Shown: positions 3,684 to 4,266 of the stretch, one piece after another | How the letters are laid out: each line of letters starts with the position of its first letter | Numbering within the stretch: position 1 is the first letter of the stretch | NCBI RefSeq assembly: GCF_030691135.1 | Contig: NZ_JAUYFA010000075.1 | Location: 1 to 64,000, forward strand | Reading direction: 5' to 3' | Source of the DNA: Phreatobacter sp. | GTDB lineage: Bacteria > Pseudomonadota > Alphaproteobacteria > Rhizobiales > Phreatobacteraceae | DNA: 64,000 nucleotides | Notes under the pieces: generated by a model | What the model was told of the DNA's origin: nothing | Seen by the model: only the letters and a program-made list of their open reading frames with translations | Database searches by the model: none | Position numbers and translations under genes: made by a program

Positions 3684-3847
3684 GGCCCCACCCTTACCCT
3701 CCCCTTGTCGCGCCGCTCCAAGGGGAGGGGGACTACCGCGTCGCGTCCTGGCATCGACCCGGCGCGCCTGGCCCGACGTATTGGCGCGAGGCGGAACGTC
3801 GTAGTCCCCCTTTCCTCGCGCAGCGAGGGGAGGGTGAGGGTGGGGCC
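3684..3847. repeat. Long interspersed palindromic element, copy A
   Basis: This 164-bp intergenic element has outer arms GGCCCCACCCT and AGGGTGGGGCC. Each arm holds its own hairpin (CCTCCCCTT with AAGGGGAGG on the left, CCCTCGCTG-type pairing on the right) around a 70-bp core. The reverse complement of the core closely matches the core of the element at 9631-9776: CCTCGCGCC, then CGGGCCAGGC, then GACGCGGTAG in the same order and spacing. It is therefore a dispersed repeat family present in opposite orientation at the two sites. No coding potential is evident. Confidence 0.8.
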
Positions 3848-3897
3848 TTTCCCATGACCCCCCGCACACCGGGTGGATGGCAACGAGGGAGGATGCG

Positions 3898-4266
3898 ATG
3901 AGACCAAGCCCTGTCGCCGCCCTCGTGGCCTTGCTCGCCGCCACTCCCGCCTCGGCCTGCCAGTGCTTCAATTTCTCCCGCGCCGAGATCGTCCAGCGCG
4001 CCGACATCGTCTTCGAGGGCACGGTGGCGGTCGTCACCGTGGCGCGCGGCCAGCTGCAGGCGACGATCGACGTGCAGCGGCTGGAAAAGGGCCCTGAGCT
4101 CACCTCCATCACGCTGCTGACGCCGCTCAGTGCCGCCGCCTGCGGCGTCAGCTTCCAGGTGCCGCAGCGGGTGATCGTCGCGGCGCGGCGCGACGGGCCG
4201 GTCTGGCGCACCGACCTCTGCATGGCGCTGGGGCTGCGGCCGCTGCCGGTTGTCCCCAGCCGCTGA
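3898..4266 (+). CDS. Small secreted TIMP/netrin-like protein
   Basis: A 122-residue precursor whose first 20 residues form a Sec signal ending ATPASA; cleavage there leaves a mature protein beginning CQC. The mature part has four cysteines (precursor positions 21, 23, 82, 108) and a beta-rich stretch with the pattern AEIVQRADIVFEGTV, which resembles the start of tissue inhibitors of metalloproteinases, where Cys1-x-Cys3 begins the mature chain and chelates the protease metal. The resemblance is by motif only. The RBS GAGGGAGG sits just upstream of this ATG. A lipoprotein reading (ASAC) is possible but the -3 residue is Ala, not Leu. It stands alone between a repeat element and a DUF1489 gene. 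Confidence 0.75.
   Translation: MRPSPVAALVALLAATPASACQCFNFSRAEIVQRADIVFEGTVAVVTVARGQLQATIDVQRLEKGPELTSITLLTPLSAAACGVSFQVPQRVIVAARRDGPVWRTDLCMALGLRPLPVVPSR

Follow-up and report, generated by a model that had tools for sequence, protein, structure and literature searches.

The TIMP family is commonly regarded as one of animals. TIMP-1 acts through Cys1, whose amino and carbonyl groups coordinate the zinc of the protease; residue 2 (Ser or Thr, with Lys being tolerated) goes into the S1' pocket, and the unprimed sites are taken up by residues 66-70 (PMC3679795). Not every protein having this fold behaves in this way, of course. AceES-2, for example, is an NTR protein without MMP inhibition (PMC3679795). 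A survey of Metazoa from 2023 traces TIMPs back to early eumetazoans, and a term search of its text gave no mention of bacteria (PMC10755359).

No described bacterial TIMP was found in the open literature searched, though an earlier mention of bacterial TIMP-like sequences is possible. The Inh/AprI serralysin inhibitors (PF02974), which are small, exported, bacterial, and named as metalloprotease inhibitors, have a lipocalin-like barrel as their fold.

The gene considered here comes from Phreatobacter. It lies in the window, by which is meant the whole stretch of 64,000 nucleotides that was analysed, and encodes 122 amino acids plus a stop. The protein reads MRPSPVAALVALLAATPASA up to the predicted cleavage site and CQCFNFSRAE... 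from there on. A short n-region leads into a hydrophobic core, then ASA, then CQC; cysteines are found at positions 21, 23, 82, and 108 only. The features of the locus are these:

3887..3892, + strand: Shine-Dalgarno-like GGGAGG, read from the sequence, 5 bases 5' of the ATG
3898..4266, + strand: gene for the TIMP-like secreted protein (open reading frame, orthologues, purifying selection)
3898..3957, + strand: predicted signal peptide, residues 1-20, ending in ASA (hydrophobic core, AxA site; in phase with Cys1 in relatives)
3958..4263, + strand: mature domain of 102 amino acids, predicted TIMP/NTR OB-fold (AlphaFold, Foldseek, VIA, profile match)
3958..3966, + strand: Cys21-Gln22-Cys23, predicted mature N-terminus C1-Q2-C3 (aligns with TIMP C1-x-C3)
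4141..4143, + strand: Cys82 of an ACG motif, predicted partner of Cys21 (aligns with TIMP-2 C72; lost together with C1 in the relative L048)
4219..4221, + strand: Cys108, predicted partner of Cys23 (aligns with TIMP-2 C101)

This open reading frame is a real, conserved gene, and a chance pattern is excluded, because orthologues are present in 12 of the 12 Phreatobacter genomes searched, their four cysteines are invariant, dN/dS is low, and the neighbours are kept. In the genus core, dN/dS lies between 0.00 and 0.40; for the most divergent member of the genus (L012) the value is 0.79, its dS being poorly resolved. Public contigs that carry the gene are mostly named Phreatobacter. The gene is followed by one for DUF1489 (Pfam E 1e-51) and preceded by one for an acyl-CoA carboxylase subunit, alpha-like as its identity is read from the open reading frame. 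DUF1489 adjoins it in all orthologues, and the carboxylase is upstream in all that have enough flank; the sequences of L003 and L020 end there.

The original prediction, made by inspection of the letters, had seen in this protein a resemblance to TIMPs. Searches with the window protein as a single sequence return weak matches only: agrin NtA in Pfam (E 0.028, within a range of 0.011-0.028 for NtA) and TIMP-2 in the PDB (E 0.6). Pfam TIMP (PF00965) gave no reported match to it up to E 10, the gathering score not being reached. A profile built from the orthologues and one distant relative finds TIMP-2 in the PDB with E 7e-5. A profile of 14 diverse bacterial mature domains finds TIMP-2 (5e-9), TIMP-3 (1.7e-5), TIMP-1 (1.5e-3), and agrin NtA (0.03); its 19 PDB matches up to E 10 are all TIMPs or agrin NtA, with no unrelated protein among them. 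In the profile alignments, Cys1, Cys3, the cysteine of the CG motif, and the distal cysteine fall on Cys1, Cys3, Cys72, and Cys101 of the TIMPs. Further, an alphaproteobacterial relative (L037) clears the Pfam TIMP cut-off, with 26.1 bits against 23.1. When run against 299 Pseudomonadota genomes, the Pfam TIMP model gave no match; the control was silent as well, this model missing most such sequences.

Structure comparison gives the same relatives. AlphaFold models the mature protein with a pLDDT of 87.8 and a pTM of 0.76. The 15 best Foldseek matches in the PDB are all TIMPs (E 8e-5, TMq up to 0.76), and VIA-align places model residues 1-96 on chain residues 1-103 of N-TIMP-3 (Z 12.7, 96 residues, 2.3 A). 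Agrin NtA and the meteorin NTR domain are among the next fold matches below the TIMPs; matches to RecO in VIA (Z about 8) were set aside as generic OB-fold similarity. Thus, the profile matches, the Foldseek and VIA comparisons, and the score of L037 turn the resemblance seen earlier into true homology, and membership of the window protein in the TIMP/NTR superfamily is established. As modelled, its fold is the TIMP/NTR OB-fold; a non-OB fold, the outcome that would have spoken against the original prediction, is not what the model gives.

The TIMPs are therefore the closest matches in both sequence and structure. The N-domains of human TIMP-1 to -3 share with the window protein the OB-fold and the CG and distal cysteines in register; secretion and a mature C-x-C start are predicted for it as well. 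Identity is about 15-25%, and the window protein itself scores below the Pfam TIMP cut-off. The bacterial protein also lacks the third disulphide of the N-TIMP domain (C13-C126), having only four cysteines in its mature form. It lacks the C-domain of vertebrate TIMPs, its reading frame ending at residue 122; some helminth TIMPs, too, are without a C-terminal domain (PMC3679795). Agrin NtA (PF03146) and other NTR domains (meteorin, PCPE, complement C3-C5) belong to the same OB-fold superfamily. NtA, however, scores lower and aligns in sequence over the first half only, and it is the TIMPs that have a flush CxC tip. Inh/AprI inhibitors, although present in the same genomes, are a separate Pfam family with no match to the window protein.

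Whether the tip is exposed depends, of course, on where the signal peptide is cut. This was examined in 32 distinct CxC members from Alphaproteobacteria, other Proteobacteria, and Eisenbacteria. A site of the signal peptidase I type is flush before Cys1 in 28 of these; the same count made with a shift of one residue gives 1/32, and with a shift of two residues 18/32. The last number makes it possible that the window protein is cut two residues earlier, between TPA and SACQC. In L012, two residues (QT) separate AMA from CQC.

A cysteine that directly follows a signal peptide ending in Ala (positions +1 and -1) might also mark a lipoprotein, in which a lipidated Cys21 would anchor the domain and bar its N-terminus from any active site. 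A strict lipobox, however, is found in only one of the 32 members. Ala occupies position -3 in 24 and Leu in one, and His, Trp, Glu, or Arg are frequent at position -2, as is typical of signal peptidase I. Further, the conserved partner of Cys1 implies a disulphide, in which a lipidated Cys1 could not take part. The lipoprotein reading, very unlikely as we judge it, was rejected on these family-wide site statistics. The original prediction, which had assumed cleavage directly ahead of Cys21 and had named lipidation of that residue as evidence against itself, thus agrees with the signal seen across the family.

The pairing that it had guessed (21 with 82, 23 with 108) likewise coincides, by alignment, with C1-C72 and C3-C101 of TIMP-2. 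In L048, Cys1 and the CG partner are both absent while the other pair is retained, which fits a predicted bond between C1 and C62 (mature numbering). This bears on another reading, that of a periplasmic metal-binding or redox protein acting through its CxC thiols. CxC motifs in other proteins do bind metals. Here, however, the two partner cysteines are conserved at the positions of TIMP disulphides, and the one member that is without C1 is without its partner as well; a metal or redox role accordingly appears most improbable. Thus, the predicted fold, the cysteine layout, and the predicted exposure of Cys1 in the window protein are well supported.

What this protein does is a more subtle question. 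The bacterial family retains the zinc-binding anatomy of TIMP-1, and of the 22 members from beyond the genus core, 16 have at residue 2 the Ser or Thr of active TIMPs. The ten distinct core proteins of Phreatobacter, the window protein included, all have Gln there, rather than the Ser, Thr, or Lys of known inhibitors. This Gln might alter or abolish affinity.

If the protein acts as TIMPs do, signal peptidase I would cut after ASA to free a Cys1-Gln2-Cys3 N-terminus. Disulphides C1-C62 and C3-C88 would tie the tip and the ACG loop to the five-stranded OB-fold. Through its free amino group and its carbonyl, Cys1 would then coordinate the catalytic zinc in a metallopeptidase; residue 2 would enter S1', and the loop ahead of Cys62 would fill the unprimed side. 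For a free-living Phreatobacter, a bacterial metzincin, whether its own or that of a competitor, would be a likelier target than an animal MMP; the host or predator enzymes that the original prediction had also named would be conjectural targets.

A candidate target does exist. The window's own genome encodes a serralysin-type metzincin (L092) having the motif HEIGHALGLGH, with Pfam M10_C at 87 bits and M10 at 27 bits, both over the cut-off; it is a plausible target. The flanks sampled for distant members, which reach up to about 9 kb on each side, contain no open reading frame with an HExxHxxGxxH motif. Within the class, M10_C is not enriched in genomes that have the TIMP-like protein, at 2/6 against 69/289, a comparison that has six clear positives only. 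Inh-type inhibitors (PF02974) have matches in 12 of the 12 genomes of the genus.

Members of the bacterial family were found in several alphaproteobacterial groups, in other Proteobacteria, in Eisenbacteria, and in one actinomycete, Nonomuraea gerenzanensis, whose protein starts with CSC after AHA and ends in a likely membrane anchor. Outside Phreatobacter they are sporadic (10 of 398 genomes of the phylum at E 1e-4); three weak matches (L032, L033, and L034) were left out of the member counts. Some relatives bear C-terminal regions of HEAT, TPR, or pentapeptide-like type, the latter two labels having been read by eye.

The evidence can thus be read in two ways. One is that the window protein, exported and made of a single domain, is a bacterial relative of the N-domain by which TIMPs inhibit, and that it acts as they do on a metallopeptidase. 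For this count the homology and fold, the flush Cys1, the Ser or Thr at residue 2 in most members outside the genus core, the joint loss in L048, and the metzincin in the genome. Against it count Gln2, the missing third disulphide, the two extra residues of L012, the want of metzincin linkage or enrichment, the Inh-type inhibitors that are already present, and the existence of non-inhibitory NTR proteins such as AceES-2 (PMC3679795). We give inhibition slightly less than an even chance.

The other is that the TIMP-fold domain binds some other protein or a component of the cell envelope and inhibits no protease, its Cys-x-Cys being structural. Agrin NtA, which binds laminin, and the meteorin NTR domain are, after all, among the fold matches that follow the TIMPs. 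The Gln at position 2, the fusions to repeat regions, and the want of a metalloprotease link in flanks and co-occurrence also speak for such a role, as does the documented case of AceES-2 (PMC3679795). A purely structural role, however, would have no need for a Cys1 that is flush in 28 of 32 members, nor for a residue 2 that is mostly Ser or Thr. Such non-inhibitory binding is a reading that we consider only a little less likely than inhibition.

The fold and the motif are known already; what is new is their occurrence in bacteria, in a minimal form with four cysteines and with a flush Cys1 that is conserved. Some bacterial proteins probably carry a TIMP label in databases already, since L037 clears the Pfam cut-off. 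A broader hypothesis is that exported inhibitors of the TIMP type form a family widespread among bacteria, and that they direct against bacterial metzincins the zinc-binding tip, with its free Cys1, that animal TIMPs use. This is possible, if rather doubtful. Were it true, the TIMP mechanism would predate animals or be shared between domains of life. Having bacterial proteins with the TIMP fold, cysteine layout, and flush Cys1 makes the ancestry of that mechanism directly testable. If inhibitory, they would join Inh as a further type of metalloprotease inhibitor from bacteria, one built on a minimal scaffold with four cysteines.

Several smaller observations were made. In six relatives, the TIMP-like domain is fused to a HEAT-repeat region (in Eisenbacteria) or to TPR/pentapeptide-like regions (L025, L046, L048, L050, L029, and L030), which suggests binding roles for some members. 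The PF02974 matches (L112 and others) number at least three per Phreatobacter genome searched, some being tandem pairs in one open reading frame. The metzincin L092 (541-2754) and several related Phreatobacter enzymes start with a short cysteine motif such as MC.VC.

The region before the gene also varies. Translation might instead begin at an in-frame ATG at 3877. In four other Phreatobacter sequences (L002, L004, L005, and L007), no nearby ATG is visible upstream, leaving the start codon ambiguous, and a different repeat, one frame of which reads HPEVRG...SRASKD, lies directly against the signal peptide. In the window, a long imperfect inverted repeat lies between the carboxylase and the TIMP-like genes (3684-3847), with arms of 30 nucleotides that are 87% complementary. 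It has a strong predicted fold and resembles a mobile palindromic repeat.
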